Source: Fodinibius sediminis (GTDB lineage Bacteria > Bacteroidota > Rhodothermia > Balneolales > Balneolaceae). Taken from it: a DNA stretch of 64,000 bases. The notes under the pieces are model-generated. The model was not told the DNA's origin. It was given only the letters and a program-made list of their open reading frames with translations, and did not search any database. Where the stretch lies: contig NZ_FXTH01000001.1 in the NCBI RefSeq assembly GCF_900182555.1, positions 62,001-126,000 of the forward strand, in the 5' to 3' direction. Made by a program: the position numbers and the translations under genes. Position 1 is the first letter of the stretch. Every line of letters starts with the position of its first letter. Positions 2-8,466 of the stretch are shown piece by piece.

Positions 2-685
2 TCTTTTTCTATTCCAACCGGCTCGGAAGCATTTTGGCTCAACCACCTCCAGGATCAGTCCATTGAAACAGAACCTCCATTTGAACGATTTGGCAAGAAG
101 ATCATAGGGCTTCAGGATCCAGATGGTCTGCACCTGGAACTCGTCATCGATCCAGGGACCGATGAAAGCCGGGGATGGGACGGCGGCCCCCTTCCGGCTG
201 AACATGCCATCCGTGGCATTCACGGGGCCACCCTGGCCGAAAAAGACTACCGGGCCACGGCACGTCTGCTGGAGGAAGACCTGGGATTCAGCTTGACAAA
301 TCAGTTGGATAACCGTTACTGCTATCAGACAAATTCCGATTACGGGTCGGTTATTGAAATCATCGACCAGTTTGGACCCAAAGGCCGGCCCGGCCGGGGA
401 ACGGTCCACCATATCGCCTTCCGGGCAGAGAACCAGGAACAGCAGCAGCTGATGCGGCAACAGCTATTGAACAAAGGATATTATGTTACAGAGACAAAGG
501 ACCGGGATTATTTCACCTCCATCTACTTTCATGAACCCGGTGGCGTTCTTTTTGAAATTGCTACTGACCCACCGGGTTTCACCCGGGATGAGGAGCTCGA
601 ATCGCTCGGCAGCAGCCTGCAGCTCCCGAACTGGCTGGAAAATCAGCGACACCGTATTGAAGCCGAACTTCCGCCGTTGAGCTGA
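2..685 (+). CDS. Ring-cleaving dioxygenase, VOC superfamily (5' truncated by window edge)
   Basis: The reading frame is open from base 2 and ends at TGA 683-685, giving the last 227 residues of a protein whose family is usually about 310 long, so the N-terminus lies outside the window. It shows the repeated beta-alpha-beta-beta-beta modules of the vicinal oxygen chelate fold. Candidate metal ligands are His in RGIHGATL, His in TVHHIAFRA and Glu in GGVLFEIATDPPG. The last motif is typical of the MhqA/MhqO/LinE-like hydroquinone or catechol extradiol dioxygenases, which open aromatic rings with Fe(II) or Mn(II) in the cytoplasm. The exact substrate cannot be read from sequence. The next gene is a separate unit 150 bases downstream. 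Confidence 0.85.
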   Translation, partial: SFSIPTGSEAFWLNHLQDQSIETEPPFERFGKKIIGLQDPDGLHLELVIDPGTDESRGWDGGPLPAEHAIRGIHGATLAEKDYRATARLLEEDLGFSLTNQLDNRYCYQTNSDYGSVIEIIDQFGPKGRPGRGTVHHIAFRAENQEQQQLMRQQLLNKGYYVTETKDRDYFTSIYFHEPGGVLFEIATDPPGFTRDEELESLGSSLQLPNWLENQRHRIEAELPPLS

Positions 686-2871: not shown

Positions 2872-5340
2872 TCAGCCCTCTCTCACCTCAACATCCCAGA
2901 TACGTTCACAGTAATCACGGATCGAACGATCCGAGGAAAAGTGCCCCATATTCGCAATATTAATAATGGCTTTGCGGGTCCACTCCGGCTGCTGCTTGTA
3001 TACCCGTTCCACCTCTGCCTGCTTGTCGACATACGACCGATAATCACCCAGGACCATGAAATAGTCCCCTTCGTTAAGCAGGGCATTGGTAATGGGATGG
3101 AACAGGTTTGGGGCTTCGGGACTGAAATAGCCGCTATGGATCTGATCAATCACCTGTTTAAGCTCCTGGTCCTCTTCATAGATCGCTTTGGGTTCGTAGC
3201 CATTCTGGCGTATGGCATCAATTTCATCCACGGTAAATCCAAAAATGAAAATATTATCAGGACCTACCTGCTCACGGATCTCAATATTCGCCCCGTCAAG
3301 CGTACCGATCGTCAGTGCGCCATTTAACGCAAACTTCATATTTCCCGTACCTGATGCTTCCATTCCGGCCGTGGAAATCTGTTCCGACAGGTCGGCCGCC
3401 GGGATCATCTTTTCCGCCAGCGACACGCTGTAATCGGGTAAGAACAATACTCTCAGTGTATCTGAAACATCGGGATCGTTGTTGATAATCTCCGCCACAC
3501 TGTTGATCAGCTTGATATGCAGCTTGGCCATGGTATAGCCCGGGGCGGCTTTACCGGCAAAAAGAAGCGTCCGGGGCTCGATATCAGCACCGGGATTTTC
3601 CTTCAGTCGATTATAAAGCGTAACAGCATGCATAACAGCCATCAACTGGCGTTTGTACTCATGAATACGCTTAATCTGAATATCAAAAATAGAATGCGGA
3701 TTTATACCGACACCGTGCTGCCTTTTAACATAGTCGGCCAACCTCTTTTTATTGGCGAGCTTGATCTGCTGAACAGACTCCCGGAACGAATCATCTTCGG
3801 TAAAATCCTGAACCCTCTTCAGCTGATCCAGGTGGGTCATCCACTCCTCCCCAATTCGATCTGATATCAGCCCTGCCAGTCCGCGATTGCACTGGCGCAG
3901 CCAGCGGCGGGGCGTGATGCCGTTGGTCACATTGGTAAACTTTCCGGGGAATTCCTGAGCAAAGTCCTTGAAGATGGTCTTCTTCATCAAATCACTGTGC
4001 AACTGGGAAACCCCGTTCACTTTTTTGGCCCCAACGATGCCCAAATTTCCCATGCGTACGCGGGCATTCATTTCGTTGCTGACAATCCTCATCCGCTCTC
4101 TTTGCTCCCTGGTGCGGCCGCTCACCCGGATGGTGTTCAGGAAACGGCGATCGATCTCTCGAATAATCTGGGTGTGACGGGGCAGCAGGTTTGACATCAG
4201 CGAAACAGGCCACTGTTCCAGTGCCTCCGGCATCAGCGTATGATTGGTATAATTCATCGTCCGGGTTACAATATCCCAGGCCGGTTCCCATTCGAGCTCC
4301 TCTTCATCCATCAGCACGCGCATAAGCTCCGGGATCGCCAGATTGGGATGTGTATCGTTGCACTGCACAGCCATCTGAGCAGGTATCTTCCGCAGGTCAT
4401 CAAACTGTTTTTTAAATCGCTGCATGGCGTCCTGCAGAGAAGCTGACACCAGGAAATATTCCTGTTTTAGCCGCAGCTCCTGTCCCTTGAACACTTTATC
4501 ATTCGGATAGAGCACACGCGAGATATTCTCCTCCAGCAGGTTGTTGCGTACCGCATCAATATAGTCGCCCTGGTTGAAACTTTTCAGATCAAAACCCTCG
4601 TCGGAAGTAGCTTTCCACAGCCTGAGTGTGTTCACGACCCCGTTCTGAAAGCCCGGAATCGGGGTATCATAGGCCAGTGCATTAACCTTGTGTGTATTGA
4701 CCCAGTCGAAATGCAGGCGCCCCCTGGCATCCTTGCTCGCCGTTGTTTCCCCATAAAACTGTATCTTGTACTTTTTCCGGGGGCGGACGATGCTCCAGGG
4801 GTAGCCATACTCCAGCCAGAGGTCCGGCTTTTCAACCTGCCATCCGTCAACTATATCCTGGTCAAAAATGCCATAGTCATAGCGAATGCCGTAGCCAATG
4901 GCAGGCACCCCCAGCGTTGCCATGGAATCAAGGAAACAGGCTGCAAGCCGCCCCAGCCCTCCATTGCCCAGTCCCGCATCCACTTCCGTCTCACGAAGTA
5001 CATCATAGTCCAGCCCCAGCCCTTCAATAGCTTCTGCGGCGACATCCTGCAGTCCGAGGTTGATCAGCATGTTGTCCAAAAGCCGGCCGATAAGATATTC
5101 CATTGAAAGATAGTAGACGCGCTTGGCTTTTTGCTGGTAATAGCGCTGCTGCGTATCTATCCAACGGTCGTGCAAACGATCCATCACTGTCATCACCACA
5201 CTGTGGTAGTGATCCCATTCCGTGGATACATACTGGTCTTTAGCCAGCGTATACTGTAAATGCTGTTTTATATCTTCGCGGAAAGCATCAACATCCATGC
5301 CCGTACGCGGCTGGAGATCGTGTGGAATATCAGTAGGCAT
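2872..5340 (-). CDS. glgP: Glycogen/alpha-glucan phosphorylase
   Basis: An 822-residue, full-length family GT35 phosphorylase that releases glucose-1-phosphate from glycogen or maltodextrin using inorganic phosphate and pyridoxal phosphate. The PLP-binding lysine lies at about residue 669 in the conserved ASGTGNMKFALNGALTIGT segment. Other family blocks are visible: GNGGLGRLAACFLDS, GYGIRYDYGIF, VQCNDTHPNLAIPELMR and NVTNGITPRRWL. It is the only glycogen gene in the window. No Shine-Dalgarno sequence is visible before ATG 5340. The upstream 638 bases are unusually structured (see the ncRNA entry), and a leftward transcript through that region could reach this gene, so a regulatory leader is possible. 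Confidence 0.97.
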   Translation of the reverse strand: MPTDIPHDLQPRTGMDVDAFREDIKQHLQYTLAKDQYVSTEWDHYHSVVMTVMDRLHDRWIDTQQRYYQQKAKRVYYLSMEYLIGRLLDNMLINLGLQDVAAEAIEGLGLDYDVLRETEVDAGLGNGGLGRLAACFLDSMATLGVPAIGYGIRYDYGIFDQDIVDGWQVEKPDLWLEYGYPWSIVRPRKKYKIQFYGETTASKDARGRLHFDWVNTHKVNALAYDTPIPGFQNGVVNTLRLWKATSDEGFDLKSFNQGDYIDAVRNNLLEENISRVLYPNDKVFKGQELRLKQEYFLVSASLQDAMQRFKKQFDDLRKIPAQMAVQCNDTHPNLAIPELMRVLMDEEELEWEPAWDIVTRTMNYTNHTLMPEALEQWPVSLMSNLLPRHTQIIREIDRRFLNTIRVSGRTREQRERMRIVSNEMNARVRMGNLGIVGAKKVNGVSQLHSDLMKKTIFKDFAQEFPGKFTNVTNGITPRRWLRQCNRGLAGLISDRIGEEWMTHLDQLKRVQDFTEDDSFRESVQQIKLANKKRLADYVKRQHGVGINPHSIFDIQIKRIHEYKRQLMAVMHAVTLYNRLKENPGADIEPRTLLFAGKAAPGYTMAKLHIKLINSVAEIINNDPDVSDTLRVLFLPDYSVSLAEKMIPAADLSEQISTAGMEASGTGNMKFALNGALTIGTLDGANIEIREQVGPDNIFIFGFTVDEIDAIRQNGYEPKAIYEEDQELKQVIDQIHSGYFSPEAPNLFHPITNALLNEGDYFMVLGDYRSYVDKQAEVERVYKQQPEWTRKAIINIANMGHFSSDRSIRDYCERIWDVEVREG

Positions 5341-5454
5341 AACATTGAGAAACTTAAATAGGGTGAATAATTAATGCGGTAATTAATGATTAAAAATAGA
5401 GAATTAAAAATGAAAAGAACTTGCGGGCGCAGAACAAGAACGCCTTAACTAGAA
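5341..5454 (-). promoter_or_regulatory. AT-rich upstream region of glgP
   Basis: The segment just upstream of glgP is strongly AT-rich, with AATTAATG repeated at short distance within 5370-5390 and A/T runs from 5385 to 5420. This is a plausible core promoter or leader for glgP. No clear -35/-10 pair is evident and no coding sequence is seen. Confidence 0.3.
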
Positions 5455-5523
5455 ACCGGTACCAACGGCCTGGATACTTCCGCCCGGGCATGCCTCATAC
5501 CCCCCTCTGCCGGCGGTACCGGT
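5455..5523. repeat. Long-range inverted repeat (perfect 9-base arms)
   Basis: ACCGGTACC at 5455-5463 and GGTACCGGT at 5515-5523 are perfect inverted repeats. Just inside them CGGC 5466-5469 and GCCG 5509-5512 can pair as well, separated from the outer arms by a 2x2 internal loop. The enclosed part also holds GCCCGGGC. As RNA on either strand this would fold into a closed 69-nucleotide domain. No protein-coding frame explains it. Confidence 0.55.
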
Positions 5524-5599
5524 CAGGAATGGCATAAAAACACACCGGTCAGACAGTAACAACGTATCGCACCCTTATTCTGTGATGTGCTTATCAAAC

Positions 5600-5705
5600 A
5601 AAAACCCCGGCAGGTTTTCAAAACCCACCGGGGTCTAATAGGGCACACCCAAAACAGGTGCTCCTTTCAGGCACTCTCTCTTAGATGACCGTGCCTTTTT
5701 TATGA
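5600..5705 (-). ncRNA. Candidate structured RNA or attenuator with intrinsic terminator
   Basis: Three adjacent hairpins are visible. The strongest is ACCCCGG/CCGGGGT (5604-5610 with 5628-5634) continued by GGTTTT/AAAACC (5613-5618 with 5620-5625). On the minus strand it is followed by TTTTTGTTTG, a good intrinsic terminator. Upstream on that strand are hairpins at 5641-5664 and 5671-5696 (GGCAC/GTGCC). On the plus strand the last one, followed by TTTTTT at 5697-5702, could itself act as a weaker terminator. The arrangement fits a small RNA or a 5' leader attenuator for glgP. I recognise no known riboswitch or housekeeping RNA consensus, so the identity is open. Confidence 0.4.
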
Positions 5706-5978
5706 TGATACCCGGCAACCAGGGTACAATGCATCTTGAATAGGATTATTAACTATGAAAACGCTCAAAGCGTCTCTCTCGATAAACAGTCTGATTATTG
5801 ATGGTCGTTATTCAGTAATATAGTCTCTCAACTGCCACCCTGATATATTCAGGTTTTATTTGATATAGCTTTTTTTAATATTGAAATATAATTGTACCAA
5901 GGGTCGGGACCCCGTTTTTTCTATTTTTTGCCAACGGGCTCATACTACGTATCTGCAACCTGATTTGCCATCATTTTT
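5706..5978. other. Intergenic region without recognisable gene
   Basis: An AT-rich stretch between the hairpin cluster and the sensor gene. It contains a short GGGT/ACCC stem near 5910-5921 followed by CGTTTTTT, too small to call a terminator. Promoters for the rightward sensor gene and any leftward transcript must lie here, but I see no confident consensus. Confidence 0.4.
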
Positions 5979-7511
5979 ATGAACTGGTTCAGAACCTGCT
6001 GTGTATACAGCGTATTCGCCGTTTTTTTCTTTATTTTTTGGGGAGCCTCTGTCTTACTTTCGCCACCGATCCATGCCCAGAGTCTGGAACCCGATCTGCT
6101 TTCTGAATCTGAAGGCCCCCTTCATCCCTATGATTCTTTCCTGTTTGCTGACATCGATACCCTCCGCCAGAAGGTCTATGTCTTTATTGAATCCGGCCTG
6201 TGGTCCTTTGATCTCAGCAACGAAAAATGGCAGTTTCTTGACTCCCTGAAAAATCGTCCGGACAGGATCGAAAATTTTCAATTTGGCTATAACCCGGTAA
6301 AAGAAAAATTACAGCTTTGGTCGAACGGGATTGGCCAGATGTATGAAATATCGCTCTCCAATTTTTCTATCCGACGCATCGACCAGTCACATAACCACCG
6401 CAATCAATACGGGCATGCTCCCTTTTTCCATAACAATGGATCCCTTTTTGGTTTTGGAGGCTATGGCTACTGGAGCTGGAAAAACATCCTCACTTTTTAT
6501 AATTACCAGATCAACGAATGGAATGTTCAACCCGTTGATCCCAACTCGGAGATGCCTCCCCCCCAAGCTCCTATTTTCGGTACCTATCACCCGGAGAAGA
6601 ACAGCTTTTTTCTGCTGGGAGGCACCTCTCCCAAAGAGCACCGGCAGGACGATCAGTATACCGAAATGATTACCCGGTACGATTACTGGTCCTTTGATTT
6701 TGACAAGGAACGGTGGAACCGCGAAGCTTCCTTCAACCTTCCGGGCTTCGAACCCTACAACCCCTTCACACTCACGCAATTCAGCAAGAACGCACGCCTG
6801 TCGATCACCACCCTCAGTACCGAAAGTAACACCTGGTACTTCCCCCTGTGGCGGACGAACCAGTCGCGGGATATCATTTTCCTTACTTCCCTTAACGTGC
6901 ACGAAAATCAACTTTTTGACCCCATAAAACTGAATTTCGGGGTAAGCCGGGTCTTCCTTCCGGCAAGCTTTCTATACAATAATAACGGCGACATTGTCTT
7001 TGTCGGCATCGATTATCTTTCGCATCAGTCCCATGCTCCAATCCGTCTTTACTCCATACCGGAAGATACCATTCATGCTGTCCGGCAGACCAGTGAATCG
7101 GGAACCGAAATCTTGTTCTGGGGCATACTGATTCTTATTGTTCTTACTGCCGTCATCATAACATTCAGGAGCTCCTGGCATTCCGGCAGCCTGACAGCAG
7201 ACCCGGCATTTTCGCTGGATGAACTGGACCATTACGAATGGATGAGCATAAATGAGAGGAAGCTTCTTCGTTTCCTGGCGAAGGATGGCATCTGTAAGGA
7301 AACCCAGGAAATTGAAGAATACCTCTGGCCGGACATCAGCAATTATGACTACCGGCGGCGTTTGCGCAATGACCTGCTTAAATCGCTCAACCACAAGATC
7401 CGGCAACACACCGACCTCGAACAGGAGGTTATCTTCAAAAAGCCGGATCCCAGTGACCGGAGGAAAAAACTCTATGGCATTCACCCTGCTATTGAAACAG
7501 GCCAAAATTAG
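5979..7511 (+). CDS. Exported beta-propeller (Kelch-like) sensor with TM segment and cytoplasmic winged-helix domain
   Basis: A 510-residue protein with four parts in order. There is a signal peptide (about 1-34, ending IHAQS). A region of about 35-370 with repeated LFGFGGYGYWSW and FFLLGGTSP blades resembles a Kelch/galactose-oxidase propeller. One strong transmembrane helix follows at about 376-396 (GILILIVLTAVIITF). A charged C-terminal domain, about 405-505, shows helix-turn-helix character (SINERKLLRFLAKDG, IEEYLWPDIS, YRRRLRNDLLKSLN). The predicted topology puts the propeller in the periplasm and the winged helix in the cytoplasm, like a ToxR/CadC-type one-component regulator with an unusual sensor. 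The DNA-binding assignment comes from pattern, not from a search. The gene stands alone with no visible Shine-Dalgarno sequence. Confidence 0.7.
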   Translation: MNWFRTCCVYSVFAVFFFIFWGASVLLSPPIHAQSLEPDLLSESEGPLHPYDSFLFADIDTLRQKVYVFIESGLWSFDLSNEKWQFLDSLKNRPDRIENFQFGYNPVKEKLQLWSNGIGQMYEISLSNFSIRRIDQSHNHRNQYGHAPFFHNNGSLFGFGGYGYWSWKNILTFYNYQINEWNVQPVDPNSEMPPPQAPIFGTYHPEKNSFFLLGGTSPKEHRQDDQYTEMITRYDYWSFDFDKERWNREASFNLPGFEPYNPFTLTQFSKNARLSITTLSTESNTWYFPLWRTNQSRDIIFLTSLNVHENQLFDPIKLNFGVSRVFLPASFLYNNNGDIVFVGIDYLSHQSHAPIRLYSIPEDTIHAVRQTSESGTEILFWGILILIVLTAVIITFRSSWHSGSLTADPAFSLDELDHYEWMSINERKLLRFLAKDGICKETQEIEEYLWPDISNYDYRRRLRNDLLKSLNHKIRQHTDLEQEVIFKKPDPSDRRKKLYGIHPAIETGQN

Positions 7512-7599
7512 GACAAAACCGTGCCTGTTGTTCACCTCTGGACCATAACCAACAGTCTGTCATATCCTTCACTGCATCATCAGCGAATTCAATTGTTTG

Positions 7600-8466
7600 C
7601 TAATCTTTTCGATAGATCCCGTAATCGGGTTTAAACCCGGGACGCGTGAGATTACTGGGGAGGTTGAGATCAAGAAATCCCTTGTAGGCATTGGTGGCCA
7701 CAAAATCTTGATCGAAGATGCCATATACCGCTGAACCGCTTCCGGTCATGGAAGCATAATGGGCCCCAAACTCGTACATCTGGTCTTTGAGATTACCCGC
7801 TACATGAATACGCGGAAAAACCGCCTGCTCCAGATCATTCGTCAGGGTGTATCGCCACTCCTCGATATCCGTTTCGGTAAGTGTCTTCTTGAGATCAAAA
7901 TCGGGTTCCGGCTTCGGCATGCAGTGCTGGTAGGCCTCGACCGTGCTGCTGGACTCATTGGGAAAACAGGTGACAATCCAGTGGTCGGGCTGTATATCCA
8001 GCGGCTCTATGTCGTGTCCCACCCCGCGGCCGATACCGGTTGCCCCCTTGATAAAGAAGGGGATATCCGCACCCAAATCACGACTCAGGTCAATTAGTTC
8101 GTCGTCGCTGAGTCCCATCTTCTCGATCTTGTTAAGCATACGCAGCGTCAGAGCCGCATTACTGCTGCCTCCTCCCAGTCCTGCTCCCGCGGGGATGCGT
8201 TTATCCACTTTAATATGGTAATGCTGTTTTAACCCAACATACCGGTCCAGGGCCCTGATGGCCTTGTTGATAAGATTACCCTCTCCTGTCGGAATTTCCT
8301 CATCACTGATATCCAGTTTTGTCTCAGGCGCCTGCATCACCTCAAAACGATCGCTCCATTCAATAAAACAAAAGCCCGTTTCGATCTGGTGATAGCCGGT
8401 AGGCAGCCGTTCCAGTACGTGCAGGCCCAAATTAATTTTGGCATATGATTCGGCAATCCACGTCAT
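7600..8466 (-). CDS. ispE: 4-diphosphocytidyl-2-C-methyl-D-erythritol kinase
   Basis: A GHMP kinase that phosphorylates CDP-ME in the MEP route to isoprenoid precursors, in the cytoplasm. The N-terminus SYAKINLGLHVL with a nearby GYHQIET is diagnostic for IspE. The ATP-binding glycine-rich loop is PAGAGLGGGSSNAAL, and the C-terminal GHMP motif is MTGSGSAVYG. ATG 8466 starts the protein at MTWIAESYAKIN; an upstream in-frame extension to 8511 has no conserved content. The product is 288 residues, normal for the family. The cca gene ends 62 bases upstream on the same strand, so the two may be co-transcribed. Confidence 0.96.
   Translation of the reverse strand: MTWIAESYAKINLGLHVLERLPTGYHQIETGFCFIEWSDRFEVMQAPETKLDISDEEIPTGEGNLINKAIRALDRYVGLKQHYHIKVDKRIPAGAGLGGGSSNAALTLRMLNKIEKMGLSDDELIDLSRDLGADIPFFIKGATGIGRGVGHDIEPLDIQPDHWIVTCFPNESSSTVEAYQHCMPKPEPDFDLKKTLTETDIEEWRYTLTNDLEQAVFPRIHVAGNLKDQMYEFGAHYASMTGSGSAVYGIFDQDFVATNAYKGFLDLNLPSNLTRPGFKPDYGIYRKD

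Follow-up and report, generated by a model that had tools for sequence, protein, structure and literature searches.

Gene and domain layout

A single open frame of 510 amino acids with an ATG start occupies positions 5979–7511 on the forward strand of the window (the whole 64,000-nucleotide stretch of Fodinibius sediminis DNA analyzed here). The following features were assigned to it and to the adjoining upstream DNA.

5602..5636, minus strand: strong terminator-like hairpin between the window gene and glgP, directed towards glgP
5928..5978, plus strand: upstream block partly conserved with genome G005 (TTGCCAAC, TACGTATC, CTGATTT; from the alignment), possible promoter
5979..7511, plus strand: coding sequence of the predicted membrane one-component regulator, stop codon included, 510 aa
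5979..6077, plus strand: signal peptide, residues 1–33 (hydrophobic window 11–27; cleavage after IHA, read by eye)
5980..5996, plus strand: candidate operator TGAACTGGTTCAGAACC, overlapping the start codon (from comparison with homologues)
6120..7061, plus strand: Kelch-type β-propeller, residues 48–361, presumably periplasmic (Pfam, AlphaFold2, Foldseek, VIA)
7110..7160, plus strand: transmembrane segment, residues 378–394 (hydropathy; model helix 362–398)
7173..7247, plus strand: linker, residues 399–423 (AlphaFold2; pLDDT <50 at 401–410)
7248..7481, plus strand: winged helix, residues 424–501 (predicted folds and fold searches)
7344..7409, plus strand: presumed recognition helix H3, residues 456–477 (AlphaFold2 and alignment)
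7431..7481, plus strand: wing, residues 485–501 (AlphaFold2 and alignment)

The N terminus is hydrophobic, with the best 17-residue window at residues 11–27 (KD 2.32), and a signal-peptidase-like site was read by eye after A33; a second hydrophobic segment followed at residues 378–394 (KD 3.13). The AlphaFold2 model (31 homologues; mean pLDDT 87.6) placed strands at residues 48–361, a helix at 362–398, and behind it helices at 424–437, 442–449, and 456–477 and strands at 485–489 and 497–501. Judged by open frame, hydropathy, and model, the layout that the initial annotation had proposed (signal peptide, propeller, one transmembrane helix, and C-terminal domain) is real. It is not due to chance, because 11 proteins in 10 genomes of the same family (the close group; 26–54% identity to the window protein) have the entire architecture, and these 11 members all carry the same residue at 18 of 78 winged-helix positions.

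The propeller resembles eukaryotic Kelch domains

The Pfam model Kelch_KLHDC2_KLHL20_DRC7 matched residues 72–248 with an E-value of 6.9e-8, but its 32.5 bits were under the 50-bit cut-off. Fold comparison was clearer: Foldseek aligned the predicted propeller with Kelch domains (KLHDC10, E 2.1e-11; KLHDC2 also matched), and VIA matched it to MKLN1 (Z 22.7, rmsd 4.2, 290 aligned) and to YjhT (2uvk; Z 17.7), which bears out the Kelch-like propeller assumed at the outset. Thus, the Kelch propeller fold is assigned from Foldseek and VIA, with Pfam contributing a match below its cut-off. The best solved matches were eukaryotic (MKLN1, LZTR1, and KLHDC2). Like the window protein, the mutarotase NanM/YjhT contains a bacterial Kelch propeller, and it is periplasmic; unlike the window protein, it is an enzyme without transmembrane segment or DNA-binding domain. 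When the close members were aligned, a run of polar residues in the propeller was invariant (R133, D135, S137, H140, N142, Q143, and H146), which might form a loop of the ligand pocket.

The C-terminal domain is predicted to be a winged helix

The last 97 residues matched nothing above cut-off in Pfam or NCBIfam. Modeled alone (AlphaFold2, 33 homologues), the domain was predicted to be a winged helix (pLDDT 90.2), and the nearest solved folds found by Foldseek and VIA were winged-helix DNA-binding domains of the PafBC, SaeR, CovR, CadC, ToxR, and MarR types, consistent with the cytoplasmic winged helix named in the initial annotation. In Foldseek, MarR-type winged helices led the list (best E-value 3.5e-3; no match reached 1e-3). 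VIA gave Z-scores of 9.0 for PafBC, 9.0 for SaeR, 8.9 for a chain of the ToxR/TcpP complex from V. cholerae (9gds), 8.8 for CovR, 8.3 for CadC, and 8.2 for ToxR (rmsd 2.6–3.5, 80–90 aligned), values of 8–9 that lie just above the background of Z 7–8 stated by the tool. They do not separate the types of winged helix, as PafBC and MarR-type chains scored as well as ToxR and OmpR types. By sequence, an OmpR/PhoB type was weakly indicated (Trans_reg_C, E 0.057, in one of 11 members); the match to DrrD was also weak (E 0.39), in the expected register, and the model of the domain lacks an N-terminal β-sheet.

Conservation was unevenly distributed along the protein. Mean pairwise identity among the 11 close members was 0.36 in the propeller, 0.23 in the transmembrane region, 0.22 in the linker, and 0.49 in the winged helix, and it rose to 0.92 at the start of the presumed H3 (residues 456–464, YDYRRRLRN). 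In the wing, D493-x-R495 was invariant in all 33 aligned C-terminal domains. The calculated pI was 10.95 for H3 and 10.17 for the wing, versus 6.5 for the entire domain. The conserved helix and wing, together with the candidate operator described below, make the C-terminal domain a candidate for DNA binding.

The winged helix is probably cytoplasmic

The 15 residues after the transmembrane segment contained more lysine and arginine than the 15 before it in 26 of 31 homologues, with one in the reverse sense and four ties, one of which is the window protein itself (one and one). At the other end, the first 75 residues held a 17-residue window with a KD of at least 1.5 in 27 of the 31; of those 27, L036 has its peak as late as residue 57. 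Among the four under the threshold, one is truncated by a contig end. A further indication of topology came from genome G038, where one ORF (L032:7824-11486; 1,220 aa) comprises two complete units of signal, propeller, transmembrane segment, and winged helix in frame. Directly after the winged helix of unit 1 follows the signal-like segment of unit 2 (residues 615–634), and because this export signal starts right behind it, the first winged helix should be cytoplasmic. The fusion looks like a covalent dimer and would make a natural double receptor. The bias in the homologues and the fusion thus argue that the C terminus faces the cytoplasm, in agreement with the initial annotation.

A sparse family with tandem and extended members

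Matches at E ≤ 1e-5 were present in 22 of 92 genomes of the same family. With a wider profile of the C-terminal domain, 20 of 395 genomes of the same phylum were matched (phylum in the GTDB sense, which we take to be Bacteroidota; NCBI assigns Balneolaceae to a separate phylum, Balneolota), and by this count the window protein belongs to a family that appears sparse and is unnamed. The arrangement of signal, small GGYGxW-containing propeller, transmembrane segment, and winged helix recurred in other families at four loci (L078, L080, L081, and L083), with Kelch matches for L078 and L081 and none for L080. A search of the wider genome contigs with the single sequence gave no match; the profile search gave five loci (L153–L157), which probably add no new homologue, as L154 and L155 match G004 and G002, and L153, L156, and L157 seem from their positions to be G195, G197, and G192. 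Named records matching or resembling close members came from Aliifodinibius salipaludis WN023, an uncultured Aliifodinibius MAG, Balneola sp. EAC52, Gracilimonas amylolytica LA399, and a Balneolaceae MAG.

The organism's own genome (G000; 50 contigs) encodes one paralogue (C8:46118-47509), whose ORF of 748 aa has an extra N-terminal region and a DUF5689 match below cut-off (E 0.033). Such a region precedes the propeller in this paralogue (L025:7282-9528) as well as in L029:7109-9292 and L030:7956-10172, and may be a second sensor module. Distant homologues also occur as tandem pairs (L038:2071-5126 in G046, L041:122-3060 in G025, and L081:376-3254); in the first two, the ORFs share 4 bp. The pairing suggests heterodimers.

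Relation to known membrane-bound regulators

The initial annotation considered a C-terminal output behind a periplasmic sensor a poorly described design. This was not supported: SusR, as described in the literature, is a one-component protein whose periplasmic sensor is followed by a transmembrane segment and, at the C terminus, by a cytoplasmic DNA-binding domain that includes a putative HTH (PMC3878776). The window protein shares the order of sensor, transmembrane segment, and C-terminal helix-turn-helix with the SusR family, its topology being the one argued for above. It differs in the domains themselves, as the SusR profile is devoid of a Kelch match, and the C terminus of SusR-type DUF6377 proteins ends, by eye, in a LuxR-like YRTRxKN helix. 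Neither the NCBIfam SusR model (NF058541) nor DUF6377 matched the window protein at E ≤ 10, and hhalign of the window family against eight DUF6377 proteins yielded a probability below 1%. Membership in the SusR family had been considered owing to a DUF6377 match below cut-off in one homologue (22.1 of 36.7 bits) and was rejected, with which hhalign agrees; the same profile gave similar matches to proteins with histidine-kinase-like C termini (by eye), so that similarity in the transmembrane segment plus a coil may account for it. A DUF6377 protein returned by the search, L042, matched NF058541 with an E-value of 2.8e-175. It is one of several (L042–L049), some of which adjoin SusC-like or glycoside-hydrolase-like ORFs (by eye).

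With ToxR, CadC, and TcpP, the window protein has in common that a single-span membrane regulator carries a winged helix. The order is reversed, as proposed initially: the part of the review that treats these proteins places their DNA-binding domain at the N terminus (PMC5936718), whereas the window protein has its winged helix C-terminal to propeller and transmembrane segment, and no N-terminal cytoplasmic DNA-binding domain precedes the latter; the sensors differ, too. Another regulator, TfoS, also has its output domain C-terminal, after the periplasmic sensor. An excerpt describes TfoS of Vibrio cholerae as membrane-bound, with an HTCS-like periplasmic sensor and an output of the AraC family (PMC7564644), different from the winged helix of the window protein; a section of the review lists it among proteins with N-terminal DNA-binding domains (PMC5936718). 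A search of open-licence papers found nothing on such regulators among the papers listed. The window protein would work like a membrane one-component regulator and is placed in neither the SusR nor the ToxR/CadC family.

Membrane-integrated regulators were put at 3% of one-component systems in the review section consulted (PMC5936718) and were called relatively poorly characterized in an excerpt of another paper (PMC11856585). The present family unites three traits: a winged helix of the kind found in ToxR, the domain order of SusR, and a Kelch sensor. As a concrete operator is predicted for it, one short site and a domain of ∼100 residues would allow direct tests of domain order, signal transfer, and the search for DNA from the membrane.

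The neighborhood does not single out glgP

In two of 12 genomes of the same genus, the window gene lies between glgP and ispE, with glgP divergent (gene names presumed from the Phosphorylase and GHMP-kinase domains found in the respective products). Of the 10 same-genus genomes without the gene, five have glgP next after ispE and three have it behind a transporter-like ORF; in the remaining two, the 1,500-bp flank did not show it. The suggestion that glgP is the target is not supported: adjacency, seen in two of 12 genomes, is weak evidence, and the ispE–glgP order exists in five others without the regulator. Still, glgP may be a target, because it and the window gene point away from each other across a shared intergenic region, although nothing singles it out.

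A conserved word overlaps the start codon

When the DNA upstream of the window gene was aligned with that of G005, identity extended unexpectedly across the start codon. The word TGAACnnGTTCnGAACy sits on the start codon in four genes, those of the window, G005, G021, and G195. G004 has it 26 bp ahead of the predicted start, with a second copy (one mismatch) 410 bp ahead, and G002 has it 202 bp ahead; in both, a stop follows the ATG inside the word after six or seven codons at most, which leaves the word outside the protein there. It was degenerate, with three mismatches, at G204 and at the paralogue in the own genome, missing at the gene itself in G014, G192, and G197, and not found (up to three mismatches) at 10 distant members. 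Folded as RNA, GAAC-NN-GTTC would have a loop of two bases, fewer than a hairpin needs, which makes a DNA site the likelier explanation.

All four genes with the word on the start codon use the same codons for N2, F4, and R5, whereas the other columns with identical amino acids agreed in 13 of 80 cases; T6 differs (ACC/ACT). Of the 27 arginine codons of the window gene, AGA is used once, namely for R5, and the probability of four AGA codons, given each gene's usage, is 3.7e-4. Codon agreement alone at N2 (0.13) and F4 (0.16) is unremarkable.

Across the 92 same-family genomes, the exact word occurred 25 times versus three times for a reversed control. Sixteen of the 25 matches were inside other ORFs; nine were not, counting one in G014 that falls in a 53-codon frame taken as spurious. 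Of these nine, six accompanied regulator genes and the other three occupied a single intergenic location in trans; together they covered nine of the 10 genomes in which a close-group regulator is present and none of the 82 others. Six of the nine informative matches come from genomes used in shaping the pattern, and the carriers are related (the flanks in G192 and G197 are nearly the same); when the six pattern-shaping genomes were dropped, three of four versus none of 82 remained (hypergeometric P = 3.9e-5, kinship not corrected for).

The trans site is located between the genes for an NAD-binding oxidoreductase and a class-IV aminotransferase in G014, G192, and G197 (domains assigned for G014). 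Its 17 bases are identical in G014 and G192, but the flanks differ; in G197, no aminotransferase match was obtained, and the contig ends soon after the site. In G198 (genus g4), the regulator is a stop-broken remnant and the trans site has three mismatches. In the five g4 genomes that lack the gene (G193, G194, G032, G196, and G199), the 1,500 bp preceding the aminotransferase gene contained no site (best, 5–6 mismatches), but their intergenic regions are, in addition, shorter or rearranged. G195 has the regulator with its start-codon site but not the trans site.

No regulon was seen in the own genome, because the other seven matches with up to one mismatch were all inside ORFs. The 10 close-group genomes contained 52 matches versus 13 for the reversed pattern. 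Forty-two of the 52 have one mismatch, and among the 20 of these 42 that were listed, 17 were inside ORFs, the other three being the second site of G004, one in G192, and one in G195. Because most of the matches looked at are intragenic, the excess of 52 over 13 is not used as evidence.

A proposed ligand-gated, membrane-anchored regulator of its own gene

Computation gave the open frame, the predicted folds, a recognition helix and a wing that hardly vary, and a conserved word that co-occurs with the gene. From them, we infer topology, ligand gating, dimerization, DNA binding, the role of the word as operator, and the sign of regulation. The resulting picture is that of a type-I single-span regulator, a ligand-gated membrane-anchored dimer, which controls its own gene via the candidate operator TGAACTGGTTCAGAACC (probability about 0.68). 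The signal peptide would export the Kelch propeller to the periplasm, where it would bind a ligand or partner, and one transmembrane helix with a short flexible linker would hold the winged helix in the cytoplasm. The ligand state might then alter dimerization or the geometry of the transmembrane segment, and two winged helices would bind the repeated GAAC/GTTC half-sites. The simplest circuit would be autoregulation via this site, probably repression; since a protein bound over the start codon would stand in the way of initiation or early elongation, autorepression is the first guess.

Alternatively, and this we consider unlikely, the regulator is the same but the start-codon word is the site of another factor, or the relic of an ancestral N terminus (MNxFRT). 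Indeed, the word encodes MN(W/L/R)FRT in four genes, the upstream copies in OB-fused relatives look like mini-ORFs (MNQFRTI*, MNQFGT*), and the copy at the own-genome paralogue looks like a decayed one (MNRLGI*). The word is also mainly palindromic, whereas OmpR-type domains mostly use direct repeats. A coding relic is, however, difficult to reconcile with synonymous sites that are near saturation elsewhere yet fixed at N2, F4, and R5. Moreover, the residue at codon 3 varies, but the codon ends in G in every copy compared, which preserves the palindrome, and the exact 17-mer recurs as noncoding DNA in trans between differing flanks (G014 and G192/G197).

That the winged helix acts after proteolytic release and not from the membrane is more doubtful still. 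ToxR- and SusR-type regulators are described, in the parts of the sources used here, as membrane proteins with DNA-binding domains (PMC5936718, PMC3878776). The low confidence of the AlphaFold2 model at residues 401–410, between transmembrane helix and winged helix, would be compatible with cleavage, but the linker is unconserved (22% pairwise identity, none of 25 positions invariant), so no conserved cleavage site shows. Winged helices also occur in non-DNA roles, and the whole-domain pI of 6.5 would suit a protein–protein adaptor, but this is very improbable for a domain whose recognition helix is the most conserved of the segments measured and whose helix and wing are basic.

Beyond the window gene, the anchored autoregulator may exemplify an undescribed family of paired or dimeric regulators with Kelch sensor, C-terminal winged helix, and a conserved GAACnnGTTCnGAAC operator, a generalization that is tentative and for which we would give somewhat less than even odds. 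One Balneolaceae branch would bind across its own start codon; another would have moved to the trans site upstream of the aminotransferase gene, the operator decaying where the regulator was lost. In distant branches, the receptors would be encoded as overlapping tandem pairs, once fused to a four-span double receptor.

Additional sequence elements

A TACGTA palindrome upstream of the window gene was rejected as a candidate site, as only G005 shares it and the remaining nine upstream regions of the close group lack it. A search of positions 5300–7600 against Rfam gave no match at E ≤ 1. The hairpin at 5602–5636 is possibly an attenuator of glgP or the end of a small divergent transcript. Terminator-like hairpins were also seen further on from the conserved trans 17-mer (L158:6022, L159:5767, and L160:5745), and a small RNA between site and hairpin is conceivable in G014, G192, and G197. 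In G195, a word with one mismatch (L185:1501) lies 81 bp upstream of a Cys_Met_Meta_PP gene (a PLP enzyme of Cys/Met metabolism), possibly a second target.
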